Part shown: positions 1,379-10,672 of the stretch, piece by piece
Numbering within the stretch: the first letter of the stretch is position 1
How the letters are laid out: the number at the start of each line of letters is the position of its first letter
Source of the DNA: Halobacteriovoraceae bacterium
Lineage (GTDB): Bacteria > Bdellovibrionota > Bacteriovoracia > Bacteriovoracales > Bacteriovoracaceae
DNA length: 64,000 bases
Assembly (NCBI GenBank): GCA_002712005.1
Contig: PASP01000015.1
Span: 62,001-126,000, forward strand
Direction: 5' to 3'
The notes under the pieces: model-generated
Seen by the model: only the letters and a program-made list of their open reading frames with translations
Told to the model about the DNA's origin: nothing
The model's database searches: none
Translations under genes and position numbers: made by a program

Positions 1379-2383
1379 TTATCGGTTCTTAGTCATGCGA
1401 AGATAGTCTTGAAAGACTTCGGAAGGGGAAAAACTGGATAGGCAGATCATAGAGTCGCAGGTTGAGAGGCCACAGTAGTGAGCATTTTGGGTACGACACT
1501 CAAGCCCTTCTTTGTAGTAATAAGGATGATCATTTGTGGAGTAGGGATGCCATTCTGTTGGGGGCTCTGGGCCGAAGAAGCTTAGAGTGGGAATGCCAAG
1601 AGCAATGGAGATGTGCTTGAGTCCAGTATCGTTACCAATATAGAGTTTGGATTCAGCTAGTGCTTTGGGAAGGGCATCTAGTTTTTCTTTGATGATATGG
1701 CAATTTCTTGGGAAGTCGAGTTCGTAAATTTTATTTTCGATTTCGTCGTCACCTGGGCCTAAAGGGATGATGATCTTCATATTGGGATCATCATTATAGA
1801 TGAGCCTGGCCAAGTCACGATAGGATTCCATGGACCACATTTTTGTTTCTCTTGTCGCTACTACTCCAAAAGTAATTTGATGTTTTTTTTCTACGTGTAA
1901 ACCCATTGAGGGGGTGTAGTGGATGTAGTCCGGCAAATGGTCTGGATTTCCAAAATAGGTCCATGCTGCATCTAAGTCTCTCTGAATATTAGATTTAATC
2001 ACACCTTGATCATGGACATCACCAACTTTCTTGTGGTGGTTATGATAGAAATATTTGAATCGACCTAATGACGAAAAGAAGCGAAAGAATTTACTTGTTC
2101 GACCACTTTGGAAAAACTCTAGGACAGAATCAACTTCAAAGGCCCGAATAACCTTATAAGACTCCCACCAGTCGGACATCGTTTTGAAGTCCATGGGGAT
2201 AACCTTATGAGCCGCTGTTTGGACATCCTTATATAGAGGATAGGTCCATGAAGGAACGGCATAAATAATTTCAGTGTCTTTGAGGGTATCACGCAAATAT
2301 TGTATCGCGCCCAGAGTTATCACGGAGTCGCCTAATGCTCGGTTCTTTATAACCAATAATGTATTGGGTGTGGTCTTCTTCAT
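1379..2383 (-). CDS. Glycosyltransferase family 9 (heptosyltransferase-like)
   Basis: This 334-residue protein has the GT9 layout of ADP-heptose:LPS heptosyltransferases. The N-terminal Rossmann half opens with VIKNRALGDSVITLGAI, where family members bind the acceptor. The C-terminal half carries the nucleotide-sugar site GNDTGLKHISIALG followed by PTLSFFGPEPPTEWHP. A Cys-rich tail (four Cys near residues 295-315) is unusual but of unclear meaning. It starts 37 bp from a divergent family 2 glycosyltransferase gene of the LPS-core type, which supports a role in building the LPS inner core at the cytoplasmic membrane. The exact sugar cannot be told from sequence. Confidence 0.85.
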   Translation of the reverse strand: MKKTTPNTLLVIKNRALGDSVITLGAIQYLRDTLKDTEIIYAVPSWTYPLYKDVQTAAHKVIPMDFKTMSDWWESYKVIRAFEVDSVLEFFQSGRTSKFFRFFSSLGRFKYFYHNHHKKVGDVHDQGVIKSNIQRDLDAAWTYFGNPDHLPDYIHYTPSMGLHVEKKHQITFGVVATRETKMWSMESYRDLARLIYNDDPNMKIIIPLGPGDDEIENKIYELDFPRNCHIIKEKLDALPKALAESKLYIGNDTGLKHISIALGIPTLSFFGPEPPTEWHPYSTNDHPYYYKEGLECRTQNAHYCGLSTCDSMICLSSFSPSEVFQDYLRMTKNR

Positions 2384-2420
2384 AGATAATTATTATACTG
2401 GGGAAAAGGAGATCTGTCTT

Positions 2421-3200
2421 TTGGATACAGTGAATAAGATATCAGCAACCGTTATTTGTTTTAATGAAGAGGATAAAATAGGCCTTTGCCTAGGTTCCCT
2501 CCAAGATGTTGTAGACGAGATTATCGTAGTCGACTCTTTTTCGACAGATCGTACTAAGGAAATTTGTGAATCTTACGCAAAAGTGAAATTCTATGAAAAT
2601 CCTTTTAAAGGGCATATTGAGCAGAAAAACTTCGCTCTCACTCTCTGTAATCACGAATATATTCTAAGTCTTGATGCTGATGAAGCTCTAAGTAAAGAAT
2701 TAAGACAATCCCTTCTTGAAATAAAGAATCACCTAAATTTTGATGCCTACAAGTTTAATCGCCTGACCAATTATAATGGTTTTTGGGTTAGGCATTGTGG
2801 TTGGTATCCTGACACCAAACTAAGGCTTATTAAAAAAGGCAGTGCCTCTTGGTAGGGAAAAAATCCTCACGATATTCTCATTCCCTTGAAAACAGATACA
2901 AAGGTCGGATTTCTCAGTGGAGATCTTCTCCATTATAGCTATGACTCTATAACGGATCATGTTGATCAAACGAATCGGTTCACGACCATAGCAGCTAAGG
3001 CGGCTTTCGAGTCAGGTACTCGTTCAAGTCTTTTTAAGATTATTTCTAGGCCTATACTTAAATTTTTGAAAGATTATTTTTTGAAGGGCGGGATTTTAGA
3101 TGGGAGATACGGGCTAATTATTTGTTCAATTAATGCGTTATCTGCTTTTTTAAAGTATTCAAAGATTAAAGAGCTTCAAGATCAGAGAAGAATCGACTAA
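2421..3200 (+). pseudogene. Glycosyltransferase family 2 (WaaE/KdtX-like), interrupted by in-frame TAG
   Basis: From a TTG at 2421 (AAAGGAGA eight bases upstream) the frame encodes a GT2 enzyme of the LPS-core WaaE/KdtX kind: ATVICFNEE near residue 10, IIVVDSFSTDRT, and the metal-binding LSLDADEA. It matches family features up to ...GWYPDTKLRLIKKG and then meets a TAG at 2853-2855 (codon 145). Without any frame change the protein continues with GKNPHDILIP, the conserved block that normally follows, to a TAA at 3198-3200 (259 codons in all). One nonsense base change, a sequencing error, or stop readthrough would each explain this. A downstream restart would lack the catalytic half. Confidence 0.8.
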
Positions 3201-4123
3201 GAAATCTCTAGGGCTGGGGGCTCTTTGCCTATGACCCCCCGAATGTAACTAATATTTTCAAATTGCTCCGGTTCATAAGAAGTTGTGAGAAAGAGATTGG
3301 TATGACCCTTATTATGAAGCTCTTGCGCAATTTGCAGACCTGATTTCTCCTTTAAGTTTACATCGATAAATATAAGGGCATCTTTTTCTGGAGGATTCTG
3401 CGGATTAATAACGAGTTTCATTCCAGAGTTTCTATAAGTTTGTTTCCATAAATTAATGAATAAAGGTTCGTCTTCATAGAGCACAACAGTTTTACCAAGA
3501 TTAGAGACGAGGGGAATCTGGAGAAGAACATCAGCTCCACCCTCTGGGCGGTTACTTAGTTTGAATTCTCCTCCAGATTCCTGAATGATTTGTTTGATAC
3601 AATTGAGCCCAAGTCCGAGCCCTCTTGCAGAAGGTGGGTTTGATGATCCATCAAGTAGTTCAGGTGGGAAGCCACATCCATTGTCGCTTAAAGAAAGGTA
3701 AAAATATTGTTTGCAATTATAAGAAGTAATCGAAATTTCTGGGTTAGAAATATTATTGGCCTTAAATTCACCAATAGCATTTCCAATAAGATTAAAGAGT
3801 AAACGATTGAAATTAAGGGGGTCGATATTTAATAAAGAGAGGTCATCAATTTTTGATTGAAGCTCTGTCTTAAAATTAACTTTTTCATTTCTAAAAAGAT
3901 CCATTTTATCGTTAAGAATTTGAATGATGGAATGATTAGACTGAGGCTTTGCCGGAAGACCAAAGTAGCGACTGACGATACCTTCTAAATACTGTGTGCA
4001 GCTTGCAAGAGAGTCTTGAATCTCTTTAGGAAGATTTTGGCCAGCTCCAAGAGTTGAGAGCATGGCAATAGGAGTTCTAAGGTCGTGAATGAGATGATCA
4101 TTAAGATGTGTATTAGAATTCAT
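3197..4123 (-). CDS. Hybrid histidine kinase without sensor domain
   Basis: The 308-residue protein starts almost at its phosphoacceptor site, LIHDLRTPIAML with His13, so it has no sensor, membrane segment or HAMP domain. An HATPase_c domain follows at about residues 100-205 with N box NLIGNAIGEF, G1 box DNGCGFPPEL and G2 box GLGLGLNCIKQ. The last 95 residues form a receiver-like domain: acidic YEDEP, candidate phospho-Asp in LIFIDVNLKEKSG, Thr in LFLTTS and Lys in GVIGKEPP. It is therefore a soluble cytoplasmic kinase-receiver, needing a partner or localisation for input. It overlaps the convergent glycosyltransferase frame by 4 bp. A sigma-54 response regulator and a histidine-hairpin mini-protein lie 2-3 kb away. 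Confidence 0.85.
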   Translation of the reverse strand: MNSNTHLNDHLIHDLRTPIAMLSTLGAGQNLPKEIQDSLASCTQYLEGIVSRYFGLPAKPQSNHSIIQILNDKMDLFRNEKVNFKTELQSKIDDLSLLNIDPLNFNRLLFNLIGNAIGEFKANNISNPEISITSYNCKQYFYLSLSDNGCGFPPELLDGSSNPPSARGLGLGLNCIKQIIQESGGEFKLSNRPEGGADVLLQIPLVSNLGKTVVLYEDEPLFINLWKQTYRNSGMKLVINPQNPPEKDALIFIDVNLKEKSGLQIAQELHNKGHTNLFLTTSYEPEQFENISYIRGVIGKEPPALEIS

Positions 4124-4569: not shown

Positions 4570-5409
4570 GTGGAAGCTCAAGTCGAAAAAACGACGACTG
4601 CCAAACCACAGGCCATAGTTGAACAGCTTTTGGATATTGCCAAAAACAATGATGCTATGGACGTGATAGGTGGATCAACTAGCTGGCGCTGGCAAGAGGG
4701 ATTAATCACTCGAATGCCGAAAACAAAAACAGTCGCAGCAATTCTCACAAAAGCATTTAATTCTGAAGATCCGAATGTTTGGATTAATCAAATAGGTAAT
4801 GGAGAACTTTTAGATTTCTTAAAGGGAACATTTAAAGCAAGAATTACTACGAATATAGACCTTGGTGAGTATATTCAAGATATCTATGATTCGCTTTTTA
4901 TAATGCTTGCAATGAAAAAGAGTGGTGTTCTTCATTCTGAGGTATTGTATAATTTTTCTTATTTTAAATATGCCTCATCTTTTGAAAATACTGAGTACTT
5001 TGAAATACCTACGGAGTCTGCTTTATTTACGATGTATGGTAAGTGGGCAGTTTCAAAATTAGAGTCAATTTTAAATAAATGTCCTACATATAAGTTAGAA
5101 GGCGATAGATTAAGAATTGAAGAGTCGCAAATAACAAGTGAATTACACACTCAAAATATTTTAGAGATTTCTAAGTTAAGAAATAAAATGATTGGCTTTA
5201 ATTCGAAGCACGATATGTGGAGAACTGCATATATAGACTTAACTGACGAAGAACATATATATTTAGAAAGACAAATGCTGGACTATTATAAAAATCTTTT
5301 AGAAGATTTAAAAACTTTTTCTAAGTCTAGTTTCCAACACAAAAAAACAAGAGCTTTTTCTATAAGTAGCTTTACTCTACCTCAAGGAAAGATGGAGGGG
5401 ATGTCATGA
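4570..5409 (+). CDS. Conserved-type hypothetical protein, cytoplasmic
   Basis: GTG start at 4570 with AGGGGA nine bases upstream. The 279-residue product has no signal peptide or membrane segment. The N-terminal 60 residues contain SWRWQEGLITRMPKTK and the remainder is helical. The C-terminal part, AYIDLTDEEHIYLERQMLDY, vaguely recalls the DUF4423 region of the TIGR02147 proteins common in Bdellovibrio and Fibrobacter, but no helix-turn-helix is obvious and this link is weak. Its stop codon overlaps the start of a small secreted protein in an ATGA junction, so the two are surely cotranscribed and translationally coupled. Function unknown. Confidence 0.75.
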   Translation: MEAQVEKTTTAKPQAIVEQLLDIAKNNDAMDVIGGSTSWRWQEGLITRMPKTKTVAAILTKAFNSEDPNVWINQIGNGELLDFLKGTFKARITTNIDLGEYIQDIYDSLFIMLAMKKSGVLHSEVLYNFSYFKYASSFENTEYFEIPTESALFTMYGKWAVSKLESILNKCPTYKLEGDRLRIEESQITSELHTQNILEISKLRNKMIGFNSKHDMWRTAYIDLTDEEHIYLERQMLDYYKNLLEDLKTFSKSSFQHKKTRAFSISSFTLPQGKMEGMS

Positions 5410-5753
5410 AATTGTTAAATATAGTTTATGTTATTTTATTATCTTTTAGTATTAATGCTGGACCAGGAGATACTGGAGGTGGTGGACCGGGACTAACCCA
5501 ACCGCTGCGTTTTATTGTTGAGGCGAGTAAAGAGACGGCACCTGTTTTTACGATCAAAGATGCGGTGGATGTGACACTTGCAGATGATGAAGTTCTTGAT
5601 ATTCAGGAACTCCAGGATCGCTTTGGAGATGAGGTGACTAAGGATGGAGATGATCTTAAGATATCTCATAAAATTCCAGTTACTGATTTTCAAAATCACC
5701 AAGGTGAAGTGATAAGAATTGAAAGAGATCATCGTTTTAATGGTCAAAACTGA
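5406..5753 (+). CDS. Small secreted hypothetical protein
   Basis: The 115-residue protein has a Sec signal peptide (KLLNIVYVILLSFSINAG, cleavage near residue 19), then a Gly-rich stretch DTGGGGPG and a mostly acidic, beta-rich body. No Cys is present and no family is recognised. It shares an ATGA overlap with the 4570 gene and is followed by a strong terminator, so the pair is a two-gene operon. A cytoplasmic protein coupled to a small exported one is a recurrent arrangement in predatory deltaproteobacteria-like genomes, but the role is not known. Confidence 0.75.
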   Translation: MKLLNIVYVILLSFSINAGPGDTGGGGPGLTQPLRFIVEASKETAPVFTIKDAVDVTLADDEVLDIQELQDRFGDEVTKDGDDLKISHKIPVTDFQNHQGEVIRIERDHRFNGQN

Positions 5754-5791
5754 TTCTTATAATTTAAGAAGAAAAATTTATTTTTGAATAT

Positions 5792-5816
5792 AGGCCTTCT
5801 TATGAAGGCCTTTTTT
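5792..5816 (+). terminator. Rho-independent terminator
   Basis: Stem AGGCCTTC / GAAGGCC with a four-base TTAT loop followed by TTTTTT. It lies 38 bp after the stop of the small secreted protein and ends that operon. Confidence 0.9.
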
Positions 5817-5879
5817 GTTGGAAGTATTCCTAGATTAATAGATTGAAGTTTGAGGCTGCGAAAGAAGTCTGGAGTGGTA

Positions 5880-6065
5880 TTAGCGGGGGCGAAGTTCGCG
5901 TACTTGATCAAGAAGAGCTTGGCTTTTTGTCATTTCTTCTTCAAATTGATCAATGTGACTTTGTGTACTTTCATCATTTTCTGAATGGGAAAACATTTGA
6001 ATGAGTATTTTCATCTTCAGATTGGATTCTTTTAAGTCGTGAATGAGTTTCGCTTGATTATCCAT
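5880..6065 (-). CDS. 61-residue helical-hairpin protein with a histidine-kinase-like H-box
   Basis: ATG at 6065 overlaps the end of the sigma-54 regulator gene by 8 bp, and GGAG lies eight bases upstream, so translation is coupled and the frame is credible. The protein is predicted by eye as two amphipathic helices (about residues 4-28 and 36-59) joined by a polar turn. The first helix carries LIHDLKESN with His9-Asp10, matching the LIHDLRTPI H-box of the kinase at 3197-4123. There is no ATPase domain. It resembles a bare dimerisation/histidine-phosphotransfer domain. Inference: it may pass phosphate to, or bind, the neighbouring receiver domain. It could instead be a structural coiled coil with a chance HD pair. 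Confidence 0.65.
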   Translation of the reverse strand: MDNQAKLIHDLKESNLKMKILIQMFSHSENDESTQSHIDQFEEEMTKSQALLDQVRELRPR

Positions 6066-7395
6066 GGGTAGGCTCCAGTTGGGCTTGAAGCCGGTAAAAT
6101 ACGGATTTTGAGATCTTGAGAGCGTCGCAGATTTTATTTGGCTTCATTCCATAGAGAGAGACAACCTTTTTGAAAGCTTCAAATTCAAGCCTTCTTACGG
6201 CCTCTGGTAATCCATGAGTGAGAATATCATTGGATAGCTTGGGAGTGAGGAAGGTATTTGAGTGATCGTCGCTATTTTTAGGTTGAGTGAGTTTTTTGAT
6301 AATATCTTCTGTAATGAGTGATTCTCTTTGAGAGCTTAAGGAAGTGAGTAGAGATTGAAGTTCTCTAAAGTTTCCTGGCCAGTCATAGTTTTTAAGAGTG
6401 TTTAGGGCATCATCTGTAAAGAAGAGCTTTCGAGTTTGATTATCATTGTAGTCGCGAATGACTTTATCGAGATCGTTGATTCTGTCTTTTAAAGCAGGAA
6501 TAGGCATTTCTATTCCCTTAATCCTAAAATAGAAATCTACTCTAAACTCACCATTTTGAATTTTAGATTGGAGATCGTCACAGGTGGCCGTAATCAGTTT
6601 AAAATCGACTTTGATTTCTTCGGTAGAACCGACTGGAGTTATAATCTTTTCTTCAAGTACTTTGAGAAGCTTTACTTGGGCTTTAGGGCTGAGGGATCCG
6701 ATTTCATCTAAAAATAGAGTTCCGCCATTTGCTTTTTCAATCCAGCCTTTCTTGTCTTCTAGAGCACCGGTGAACGCACCTTTTTTATGACCAAATAATT
6801 CAGATTCGATGACATGATCGCTCAGCTCACTTAAGTTTTTGGAGACAAAAGGCCCAGCTTGGTCAGTGAAGGAATGAATGACCTTGGCGAGATGAGTTTT
6901 TCCGACTCCCGTATCCCCAGTAAGGAGGATTGGGGTATTTGAATATTGACTTCTTTCAAGGACAGACTTGAGTAGAGCACGGTAATCAGAGCAGGTCGTA
7001 TTTAAGTAGCGATCGATATACTTTTCAATAGGATCTCCTAAAGTATTTCGAATAATTCGCTCAAGCTCCGACTCAAATTCATCTTTTACAAGATAATGAG
7101 AACAACCTTTTTGAAAGGCCTGTTGAATGACGGCTTCTTCACCATGGCTCGTGAGAACGACGCTTGGGATATTGCGCTCTTTACAAGTTTCTATGACTTC
7201 AAGACCCTCTAGGCTTTCCTTCGTTGGAATGAGATTGAGATCGGTGAAAACGAGATCAAAGTGGGTTTGAGAAATCGCCTTTTTTGCACTTTGCAGATCC
7301 CTGCAGAGAAAGGCCCTGTGATGTTTGGAGACAATCTCTTTGAGATAGGCTCCAATAAGCTGATCATCTTCGACTATAAGTATCTGAAATCCCAT
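6058..7395 (-). CDS. Sigma-54-dependent response regulator, NtrC family
   Basis: The 445-residue protein has three domains in standard order. The receiver (about 1-120) has acidic VEDDQ, phospho-Asp in LVFTDLNL, Thr in VLTSHGEE and Lys in YLVKDEF. The AAA+ sigma-54 interaction domain (about 140-375) has Walker A GDTGVGKTH, the sigma-54 contact loop GAFTGA, Walker B GGTLFLDEIGS and a C-terminal WPGNFRELQ. A Fis-type helix-turn-helix follows (KICDALKISKSVFYRLQ). All functional motifs are intact, so it should activate sigma-54 promoters when phosphorylated. It is the first gene of a unit with the 61-residue histidine-hairpin protein. The targets are not evident from this window. Confidence 0.95.
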   Translation of the reverse strand: MGFQILIVEDDQLIGAYLKEIVSKHHRAFLCRDLQSAKKAISQTHFDLVFTDLNLIPTKESLEGLEVIETCKERNIPSVVLTSHGEEAVIQQAFQKGCSHYLVKDEFESELERIIRNTLGDPIEKYIDRYLNTTCSDYRALLKSVLERSQYSNTPILLTGDTGVGKTHLAKVIHSFTDQAGPFVSKNLSELSDHVIESELFGHKKGAFTGALEDKKGWIEKANGGTLFLDEIGSLSPKAQVKLLKVLEEKIITPVGSTEEIKVDFKLITATCDDLQSKIQNGEFRVDFYFRIKGIEMPIPALKDRINDLDKVIRDYNDNQTRKLFFTDDALNTLKNYDWPGNFRELQSLLTSLSSQRESLITEDIIKKLTQPKNSDDHSNTFLTPKLSNDILTHGLPEAVRRLEFEAFKKVVSLYGMKPNKICDALKISKSVFYRLQAQLEPTHG

Positions 7396-7468: not shown

Positions 7469-10400
7469 TTAGGTTAAGAGGGACTCGAAATCTTTCATGG
7501 TTAGCTTTCCAGTGAAGAGGTTTTCCTCATCATCAGGGAGAAGATCGTGAAAGAGCTCTTTTTTCATTTTCTGAAGTTCAAGAACCTTTTCTTCAACAGA
7601 GCCTTTAATAATAGGTCTGTAGACGGTAAGCGTGTTTTGCTGACCAATTCTGTGGGCCCTATCGATTGCCTGACTTTCGACGGCCGGGTTCCACCAAGGA
7701 TCCATGATAAAAACATAACTAGCGGCAGTTAGGTTGAGTCCAACCCCACCAGCTTTTAGGGAGATAAGAAAAATGGGAGCCTTTCCTTCTTGAAAGAGCT
7801 CCACTTGAGTTTGACGTTTTTTTACACTTTGAGTTCCATCAATTCGAGCAAACTTCCAGTGGCGCTCTCTTACTATTTTCTGAATAAGGTCTAAATAGGT
7901 TGTAAATTGACTGAAGATAATGGCCTGATGTCCTTCTTCAATAATTTGATCCAGGGTCTCCATGAGAAATTGGACCTTCGTTGAATCAATATTGGCCTCA
8001 CGAAAAGTCATTTCTCCTTTTCTATTTTGCCATAGACACTTTTGTCTGAGTTCAAGAAGACCTCTAAGAATTTCACCATATTTCTTCTTAGAAGGAGCAT
8101 TATCAATTTTACTCTTAATCTTAATTAAGCTCGACTTGTAGTCGCTATCTTCATGATCAGAAAAACTAAGCATGACATTATTTTCAATTTTTGGTGGAAG
8201 ATCCGTTAATACCTGGGCCTTGGTTCTTCGTAAGATAAAGGGGGCGGCATTCTTTCGGGCCAGTAGACGACTCTTTTTACTTGAGGCCGTGCGAACAAAT
8301 TGAAGATCACCCCAAATTCCAGGAATGGAGAGATCAAGAATATTGTAAAATTCTGCTAAGTCATTTTCTACCGGCGTACCTGTTAAGCAGATTCTAAAGT
8401 CAGCTTTTAGCTGTCTAGCGGCTAAAGCCCCTAAAGATCGTATATTTTTGAGGTGCTGTACTTCATCGAGAATGACGATATCGAAATTTTGCTGTGAAAA
8501 AGTTTCATCTATTTCTCTTTTCATAACTCCGTAGGAGGTAAGAATGATTTTATGATCGGACTCAATCGTTCTTTCACCACCATGATAGATATGAACATCG
8601 ATGTCTGAGAATTTCTTAAATTCCGCTTCCCAGTTTAAAAGTATGGATACGGGACATACGATGAGGACTTTATCAATCTTTTCATAGATGGAAGTGAGAA
8701 AGGTAATGGTTTGAAGAGTCTTCCCAAGACCCATATCATCAGCTAAACAGGCCCCTAATTTATTCTCGTGAAGAAAACGCAGCCAATTGTAACCATTTCT
8801 TTGATAAGGTCTTAGAACATCTTCGAGATGTTCTGGAAGTTTATACTCGGGCATTTTTTCCAAGGTCGCCAATGATTCACAGAGTTCTATTTCCTCGGGG
8901 GTAAGAGCGCCGTCAATTCCAAGCTTTCTTAGTTCAAAGAGCTCAAAGATTCTTGCTCTGTTGAAGGGAAGGACAAAGCGGTTAACGGTTTCTCCATCTT
9001 CTCCTTCATTATTATTTTCATCATTCTTATTTTGAGTATATTTATTTTGAGCTTCGTATTGAGTGTACTTTTTAACAAACTTAAGAACATCCTTTTGTTC
9101 TTTTGTGAGAAGTACGAGTCCATCTTTTGAAAGGGATAGACCATTGTCGAGATCGAGATTTTTAATAATCTCCATATCATCTTCGCCAACTTCTAATTCA
9201 AGATCAAACCAATTTGTCGCCGTACTCTTTCTTTCAAAACGAATCTTTGAAGACCAGCGTCCAATTTCATTGCGATTATAGTAGAGATGAACACCGTGTA
9301 AGGTCGCTCTGGCATGAAACTCACTTAAACCTTGAAATAAAGTAGAAGAGGGAAGAGCATAAGTGAGCTCTCGTGTTTCAGAATCATATTTGGAGAAACG
9401 AAAGAATCCATCTCCAAAAGATTTATATAAAGAGAGAAAGAAGTCTCTTAGGAAATCATTTCTATATTTACACATCACTCTCGTTTTACCGTTATAAAGC
9501 ATGGCCTCTTCTTGAGTGAGAGTGTATTCAATCAGATTCCCCCAATAATTCTTTTGAGAACTCGGATGTAATGCTGTTTTATAAGCATCACTTCCTTCTT
9601 CAAATGAACTATAAAGTTTTTGAACAAACTCATAGGCATCTTTCTTGGTTCTGAAACTTGAAAGTTTACCGCCGCTGAAAGTGAAGGCCTTTAAGAAATC
9701 TGGACCATGAAGAATATTTTCATTTTGATCGGTAAAGATAAGAGAAATATTGATCTGATTTCCCTTCTTTGCTTTGTCGAGGTGGATACGTGGAGTTGTT
9801 TCAATAACAGGTATTTCTGTAAGAGGAAGCTCATCAACAATAACATCAATATATTGCTCTGAAATACCTTGGCATATTTTAATAAGATCGTTCACATCTA
9901 GGTGAGTGAGGTTGATTCTTAGTTTTTGAATAAGATCTTTCAATTCACTCGGAAGGTGAAAGCATTGACCATTGGCCCAGTTAAAGAGGTAGAGGTTTTC
10001 AAATAGAGAAATCTCTCTAAGAATATTTCCTTCTTTATTTTGATATTTAAATCTCAACATTGGAAGAGCGTCTTGCTCACCACTATTTTGTTCAAAGTAA
10101 TCTCTACTTGTTACTTGAATAATAAGCTTACCTTCCCATTGAGCAGGAATAGGAAAGTTGATGATTTTCTTGGTATGAAGAAGGTATTGAAGAGAAGAGT
10201 AGGCTGAATTACTTGGAGCTCTTTCTAGTTGATGGGGGCCACCTACAATCGTTCCATATTCATAAGCACTTACAGCAAAAGTAGACTCAAGGGGAATAGG
10301 AGGGTGAGACATATTGTCTTCCGCTGCATCGAAATTTTTCTCATGCAGAAGATGAATGTGATAAGTGAGAAAAAGAGCTACGGAGTGTTCACAGATTCCT

Positions 10401-10672
10401 GCTTCTTGCCATTTATGGCAGTCACAATTAGATGAAATAGGACCTTCTTCTGTTCCTTCAAGTCTTTTCTTATAAACAACCTTGGTCTCGTGGGAGCGAT
10501 CACCTTTTACGATTCCAGAAACGATGAAGTAAGTTTCTGGGCCACCCTTGGAAAAGGATATACTTACTCTAGAGAGTTGAAGAAGTTGTTTGGCCTTGGC
10601 CAAAAGAGCTGGGTCAAAATACTTATTGGCCTCAACATCTACAGATTCGGGGATTTTCCAAGCGGAATTCAT
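7469..10672 (-). CDS. SWIM zinc-finger SNF2-family helicase/ATPase
   Basis: This 1067-residue protein starts with a SWIM zinc finger at about residues 75-105 (CDCHKWQEAGICEH, the CxC...CxH pattern). A long middle region follows, and then a complete SNF2 motor in the C-terminal half: motif I DDMGLGKTLQT, motif II ILDEVQH, motif III LTGTPVEN, and the helicase C block with IFSQFTTYLD, FLISLKAGGVGLNLT and RAHRIGQ. Such SWIM-SNF2 proteins occur widely in bacteria and are thought to remodel DNA-bound protein or RNA polymerase complexes as ATP-driven translocases; the exact substrate is unknown. It is a single-gene unit. The N-terminal half is of the usual length for the family. Confidence 0.93.
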   Translation of the reverse strand: MNSAWKIPESVDVEANKYFDPALLAKAKQLLQLSRVSISFSKGGPETYFIVSGIVKGDRSHETKVVYKKRLEGTEEGPISSNCDCHKWQEAGICEHSVALFLTYHIHLLHEKNFDAAEDNMSHPPIPLESTFAVSAYEYGTIVGGPHQLERAPSNSAYSSLQYLLHTKKIINFPIPAQWEGKLIIQVTSRDYFEQNSGEQDALPMLRFKYQNKEGNILREISLFENLYLFNWANGQCFHLPSELKDLIQKLRINLTHLDVNDLIKICQGISEQYIDVIVDELPLTEIPVIETTPRIHLDKAKKGNQINISLIFTDQNENILHGPDFLKAFTFSGGKLSSFRTKKDAYEFVQKLYSSFEEGSDAYKTALHPSSQKNYWGNLIEYTLTQEEAMLYNGKTRVMCKYRNDFLRDFFLSLYKSFGDGFFRFSKYDSETRELTYALPSSTLFQGLSEFHARATLHGVHLYYNRNEIGRWSSKIRFERKSTATNWFDLELEVGEDDMEIIKNLDLDNGLSLSKDGLVLLTKEQKDVLKFVKKYTQYEAQNKYTQNKNDENNNEGEDGETVNRFVLPFNRARIFELFELRKLGIDGALTPEEIELCESLATLEKMPEYKLPEHLEDVLRPYQRNGYNWLRFLHENKLGACLADDMGLGKTLQTITFLTSIYEKIDKVLIVCPVSILLNWEAEFKKFSDIDVHIYHGGERTIESDHKIILTSYGVMKREIDETFSQQNFDIVILDEVQHLKNIRSLGALAARQLKADFRICLTGTPVENDLAEFYNILDLSIPGIWGDLQFVRTASSKKSRLLARKNAAPFILRRTKAQVLTDLPPKIENNVMLSFSDHEDSDYKSSLIKIKSKIDNAPSKKKYGEILRGLLELRQKCLWQNRKGEMTFREANIDSTKVQFLMETLDQIIEEGHQAIIFSQFTTYLDLIQKIVRERHWKFARIDGTQSVKKRQTQVELFQEGKAPIFLISLKAGGVGLNLTAASYVFIMDPWWNPAVESQAIDRAHRIGQQNTLTVYRPIIKGSVEEKVLELQKMKKELFHDLLPDDEENLFTGKLTMKDFESLLT

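Follow-up and report, generated by a model that had tools for sequence, protein, structure and literature searches.

In the window, which is the whole 64,000-nucleotide stretch of Halobacteriovoraceae DNA analysed here, a frame for a protein of only 61 residues begins inside the 3' end of a gene for an NtrC-type response regulator, and the question is what so small a product could do for its neighbour. A sequence-only reading had noted the LIHDLK motif of this frame and its 8-bp overlap with the regulator gene, both confirmed from the sequence, and had proposed a stand-alone phosphotransfer or dimer-capping hairpin that might form one relay with a nearby hybrid kinase. The features concerned are collected in Table 1, and we refer to the 61-residue product as the mini-protein.

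Table 1. Features around the mini-protein gene, in window coordinates.
Feature	Position	Strand	Remarks
Family-2 glycosyltransferase gene	2274-3200	+	in-frame TAG at about 2853-2855
Sensor-less hybrid kinase	3197..4123	-	H-box LIHDLRTP (HLIHDLRTP), HATPase_c, weakly scoring C-terminal REC (Pfam)
Two genes between kinase and mini-protein: first	4570-5409	+	279-aa product, no known domain; overlaps the second by 4 bp
Two genes between kinase and mini-protein: second	5406-5753	+	115-aa product with a GGGGP stretch
Terminator-like hairpin	near 5788-5818		3' of the two preceding genes
Mini-protein, 61-aa DHp-like hairpin	5880..6065	-	ATG start, MDNQAKLIHDLKESNLKMKILIQMFSHSENDESTQSHIDQFEEEMTKSQALLDQVRELRPR
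Overlap of regulator and mini-protein genes	6058..6065	-	ATGGATAA, 8 bp; regulator stop and mini-protein start
NtrC-type response regulator, partner gene of the mini-protein	6058..7395	-	REC residues 5-115, sigma-54 AAA+ with GAFTGA, C-terminal tail
SNF2-type helicase	7469..10672	-	upstream of the regulator, same strand

The mini-protein is encoded by a real gene under purifying selection. A GGAG sequence lies about 7 nt 5' of its ATG, inside the regulator gene. Full-length orthologues of the regulator were found in five genomes of the same family, at 41-44% identity, and each of the five best regulator orthologues is overlapped at its 3' end by a small open frame with an aligned His; scanning the genome contigs with the whole regulator gave nothing more specific than NtrC-type relatives, mostly at 30-37%. 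In most orthologous pairs of regulator and mini-protein genes, the overlap measures about 1-29 bp. Estimates of dN/dS for the mini-protein ranged from 0.08 to 0.23 where they could be made, synonymous sites being saturated in most pairs. A spurious frame or the decaying remnant of a kinase is ruled out by the synteny, the invariant His and the dN/dS values. Annotation easily overlooks genes this small, and the window protein used as a single query returned only noise at E 0.03-1, its Pfam matches being likewise noise. The five orthologous small frames were picked by position and not by motif; their products share 16-26% identity with the window protein, and His9, near the start of the first helix within LIHDLK, is the sole invariant residue besides Met1.

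Using a first profile built from these six sequences, we detected further bare mini-proteins. The resulting profile, A3, identified them in 45 of the 129 genomes of the class, which in the genome collection used are the same 129 genomes as those of the order and the family; matches to kinases were set aside, and one further genome had a kinase match only. A second subfamily, with the motif HD[IM]NSxLSAI, was found by position behind the next tier of regulators; its profile, A5, adds 27 genomes, and genome G122 adds one more by position, so that bare mini-proteins occur in about 73 of the 129 genomes (A3, A5 and position combined, counted from tables). They are 46-73 residues long. By coordinates, the mini-protein gene immediately follows a sigma-54 response regulator gene on the same strand in at least 38 genomes of the class, and in another family of the phylum (genome G362, locus L249) it overlaps a REC and sigma-54 regulator gene by 4 bp. 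Across 48 distant genomes of other groups, no small open frame was matched by the mini-protein profile, and all eight profile matches at E<=1e-3 were the H-boxes of long kinases. At the profile sensitivity used, the bare form is thus restricted to one part of the phylum, the one studied here.

Among the 20 copies of the A3 alignment, His is kept in all 20 and Asn occupies H+4 in 19, the window protein, with Glu13, being the exception. Conservation of a His-Asp pair, which the sequence-only reading had put forward as a test, held for its first half: His is kept in 68 of 68 distinct small proteins, and Asp is not strict at the next position (D 61, E 4, N 2, Q 1), which is acidic in 65 of the 68. 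The profiles contain the His, yet at the 50-100 bits of most matches a copy lacking it would still have surfaced. At H+4, the same copies carry N in 40, S in 20, A in 5 and E, K or G in one each.

Pairing with a regulator is not universal, and many relatives (clades g36, g43 and g27) have no response regulator adjoining. Among the loci L181, L182, L183, L188, L189 and L190, the g36 and g43 genes lie between an FAH-family hydrolase gene and an ApaG-like gene, and the g27 genes overlap an AlkB-like gene, with no regulator nearby in either case. Other loci vary the regulator. In genome G060 (L186:7370-8942, minus strand), some 17 bp separate the mini-protein gene from a preceding regulator gene; by alignment, the AAA+ domain of this regulator lacks the GAFTGA region while REC is kept, and it is possible that this is a sigma-54-independent receiver partner. 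At L135:1071-1707 (plus strand), a CheY-like receiver gene overlaps an 87-aa frame with HHNINNSLAKI; this may be a similar arrangement built on a single-domain receiver. Behind the mini-protein genes of the second subfamily (L239, L242, L243, L245 and L230) lies a gene for a protein of about 275 aa, with a DUF4214 match in L245 and an N-terminus resembling a signal or membrane segment, and so does, on the other strand, a lysyl-tRNA-synthetase-like gene (EpmA-like by eye); the cluster is conserved. Related sigma-54 regulators without a mini-protein have instead, 36-70 bp downstream, a gene for a protein of about 110 aa with the motif FPNxxL...TGIQxTRVFRIxNGxEMKxxEYE, HTH-like by eye (L200, L201, L203, L204, L207, L208, L209, L212, L215, L216, L217 and L220).

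The wider neighbourhood is conserved in part. The SNF2-type helicase gene directly adjoins the regulator gene also in genomes G073 and G127, which share the order helicase, regulator, mini-protein with the window, and it lies in the same stretch in G001, G112 and G113; a glycosyltransferase gene is found on the far side of the mini-protein locus in G000, G001 and G073. The family-2 glycosyltransferase gene of the window is broken by its in-frame stop codon, and its relatives in G073 and G001 (254 aa) are intact; a pseudogene, readthrough or an assembly error are the options. The two plus-strand genes next to the mini-protein gene have no counterpart at the other mini-protein loci read, and their products, the shorter of which is probably secreted, match no Pfam or NCBIfam family; the pair looks like an inserted cassette.

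What kind of protein is it? Among long proteins of the class, the bare mini-protein profile matched mostly histidine kinases, with the His in register; their H-boxes read AHEINNPLT, AHDIRNPLT, GHDLKNPLT, SHDISNSLT, THDISNSLN and RHELSNPLF (independent kinases retrieved by regular expression came to only 4 sequences). Pfam HisKA (PF00512) matches 9 of the 20 A3 members at E<=1, the best at 4.2e-5, and NCBIfam ChpT is matched weakly by 3 of 22 members (best E 0.006). The window mini-protein alone has no Pfam match at E<=1 to HisKA or to Hpt (PF01627). No HATPase_c domain was matched in its 61 residues, and no degenerate CA domain follows the DHp, the protein ending after the second helix. It shows the His followed by an acidic residue that is typical of HisKA (His9-Asp10), and Glu13 stands where the phosphatase motif, which is not universal in HisKA proteins, has Thr or Asn at H+4. 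A profile search of PDB sequences gave EnvZ DHp constructs as the main family, at E 0.004-0.03 and with the His in register; its best single match, a telomerase subunit, was judged to be helical noise. Family-level evidence places the mini-protein in the HisKA superfamily, the window sequence alone failing the HisKA model. AlphaFold2 predicts the anticipated two-helix hairpin for the window protein (helices 3-27 and 32-58, pLDDT 88.9), as it does for a member of the second subfamily (pLDDT 93.1). The shape of a 61-residue hairpin is unspecific, and a PDB fold search placed the kinase 4kp4 at rank 8, with no match at E<=0.001.

The regulator matches Pfam Response_reg (2.3e-14) and Sigma54_activat (2.7e-54), which makes it a REC and sigma-54 AAA+ regulator, and D10, D52, T82 and K104 of REC (acidic pair, acceptor Asp, Thr and Lys) are kept in all six aligned orthologues. 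The mini-protein, as far as its sequence tells, has the DHp essentials for exchanging phosphate with a receiver, and not much more. These essentials, together with the kept receiver residues, make phosphotransfer between the hairpin and the receiver of its coupled regulator the preferred reading. We therefore read the mini-protein, with a rough probability of 0.6, as a bare DHp and a dimeric phosphotransfer partner of the regulator's receiver, similar to Spo0B or ChpT without the pseudo-catalytic domain. Two copies would pair into a four-helix bundle, in which His9, with Asp10 as its acidic neighbour, would exchange a phosphoryl group with D52 of the receiver. Translationally coupled to the regulator, the mini-protein would shuttle phosphate between the sigma-54 activator and another receiver or kinase; in this picture its dimerization, its phosphorylation, the direction in which phosphate moves and the kinase at the start are inferred. 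Published work on DHp domains agrees with it: that of HK853 by itself engages RR468 (PMC5727384), and EnvZ stays functional with HisKA and HATPase on separate chains (PMC3591291). The stand-alone phosphotransfer hairpin of the sequence-only reading is thus supported by the kept His, the kinase-specific profile and the predicted fold. Several points speak against a DHp: the window protein, alone without a HisKA match, is also the only A3 copy without Asn at H+4, the fold search is unspecific, no conserved kinase partner was identified, and many relatives adjoin FAH/ApaG or AlkB-like genes and no response regulator.

The first alternative to weigh, unlikely as it is, is that the hairpin serves mainly as a phosphatase of the phosphorylated regulator, like the DHp half of a bifunctional kinase, the coupling of the genes keeping regulator and brake in step. 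Kinase activity in HisKA proteins depends on the acidic residue that follows the His, and phosphatase activity on Thr or Asn at H+4 (PMC3510030); most homologues read H-D/E-x-x-N. The HK853 DHp domain alone engages its regulator RR468 and acts on the phosphorylated form (PMC5727384), and EnvZ without its catalytic domain does the like, according to a title cited in the same paper. Against a brake stand the Glu at H+4 of the window copy and the Ser in 20 of the 68 copies, and also the acidic neighbour of the His, kept in 65 of 68 yet not obviously needed by a pure phosphatase. With Glu in place of Asn, Ser or Thr, transfer rather than phosphatase activity is to be expected of the window copy, so a relay would be the better guess there, whereas for copies with Asn at H+4 a brake may be as likely as a relay.

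It is improbable that the mini-protein is instead the phospho-acceptor half of a split kinase, which would take its phosphate from a separate HATPase protein and donate it to the regulator. Such a division is known in principle, from CheA3/CheA4 and from EnvZ, which works in vitro with HisKA and HATPase on separate chains (PMC3591291), and the H-box of the mini-protein is kinase-like; but no conserved HATPase-only gene lies beside the mini-protein genes in the 19 loci read (open frames clustered, part of them domain-scanned).

A non-catalytic accessory, in which the hairpin would bind the regulator at its receiver or dimer interface and control it without phosphate chemistry, seems very doubtful. 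The protein is very small and divergent, and some copies have no regulator nearby, as such a role would allow; but a single, absolutely kept H-box His at about 15-25% identity is hard to explain without chemistry. The dimer-capping element suggested earlier is not favoured either, because conservation centres on the His and not on a surface.

Just as doubtful is the three-gene relay with the hybrid kinase as dedicated donor: the kinase lies in the same genome neighbourhood, shares the LIHDL string and, with its terminal REC, needs a phosphotransfer protein, but two opposite-strand genes separate it from the mini-protein gene, which makes a common transcript unlikely, 123 other genomes of the family contain no relative of it at E<=1e-25, it is absent from the other mini-protein loci read, and it is not short of partners, since eight canonical Hpt domains, the mini-protein not among them, are encoded in the genome and could serve it. 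As the third member of a conserved module, the kinase is ruled out.

The recurring pairing of mini-protein and regulator, with the key His, suggests a minimal type of phosphate-transfer or phosphate-removing partner. At slightly better than even odds, the mini-proteins form a lineage-wide class of DHp-only proteins, with two subfamilies translationally coupled to sigma-54 response regulators and others tied to genes outside signalling (FAH, AlkB), in which the hairpin, free and exchangeable, would serve as a node that either passes phosphate to receivers or takes it off them; they would then rank with the smallest histidine-phosphotransfer modules in nature. The open-licence literature yielded no description of a family of bare DHp hairpins. 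Should its His indeed carry phosphate, the hairpin would be natural proof that a DHp alone, without sensor or ATPase, is a selectable signalling unit, and a step between two-component systems and phosphorelays, the evidence for which has so far come from dissected domains (EnvZ, HK853) and pseudo-kinases (Spo0B, ChpT). Proteins of 46-73 residues with natural partner receivers, and with Asn, Ser and Glu as natural alternatives at H+4, offer material for studying specificity and the choice between phosphatase and transfer.

Among known systems, the mini-protein resembles EnvZ domain A (1joy, 5b1o; a HisKA DHp) in having an H-D-[IL]-x-[NT] H-box where helix 1 begins, in the helical hairpin of about 60 residues and in the profile match in register. 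Unlike HisKA kinases, members of the mini-protein family are naturally free-standing, with neither sensor nor HATPase, and the aligned members lack the Pro that typical kinase H-boxes have at H+5. HisKA proteins without HATPase are not new as a count: a 2013 SMART survey listed 1556, of which 711 carried HE/DxxN/T, as possible split kinases, and in the part of that survey considered here they are counted, not characterised, with no family of bare hairpins overlapping response regulators named (PMC3591291). With canonical Hpt proteins (PF01627), the mini-protein would share the role of a stand-alone carrier of a phospho-accepting His, possibly in a relay; Hpt differs from it in motif and in being a larger, monomeric helical bundle. 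The H-box of Spo0B reads HDxxN, without Pro, and Spo0B carries a degenerate CA domain. ChpT is likewise a DHp-type phosphotransferase with a degenerate catalytic (CA) domain (PMC9981736). In both, as in the mini-protein, a DHp-type phosphotransfer element is separate from the kinase; the weak ChpT matches are a further resemblance, and the mini-protein differs in having no CA domain. Lacking that domain, it is not a member of Spo0B/ChpT, nor is it an Hpt, and we infer that it works like a phosphotransferase of the Spo0B/ChpT type.
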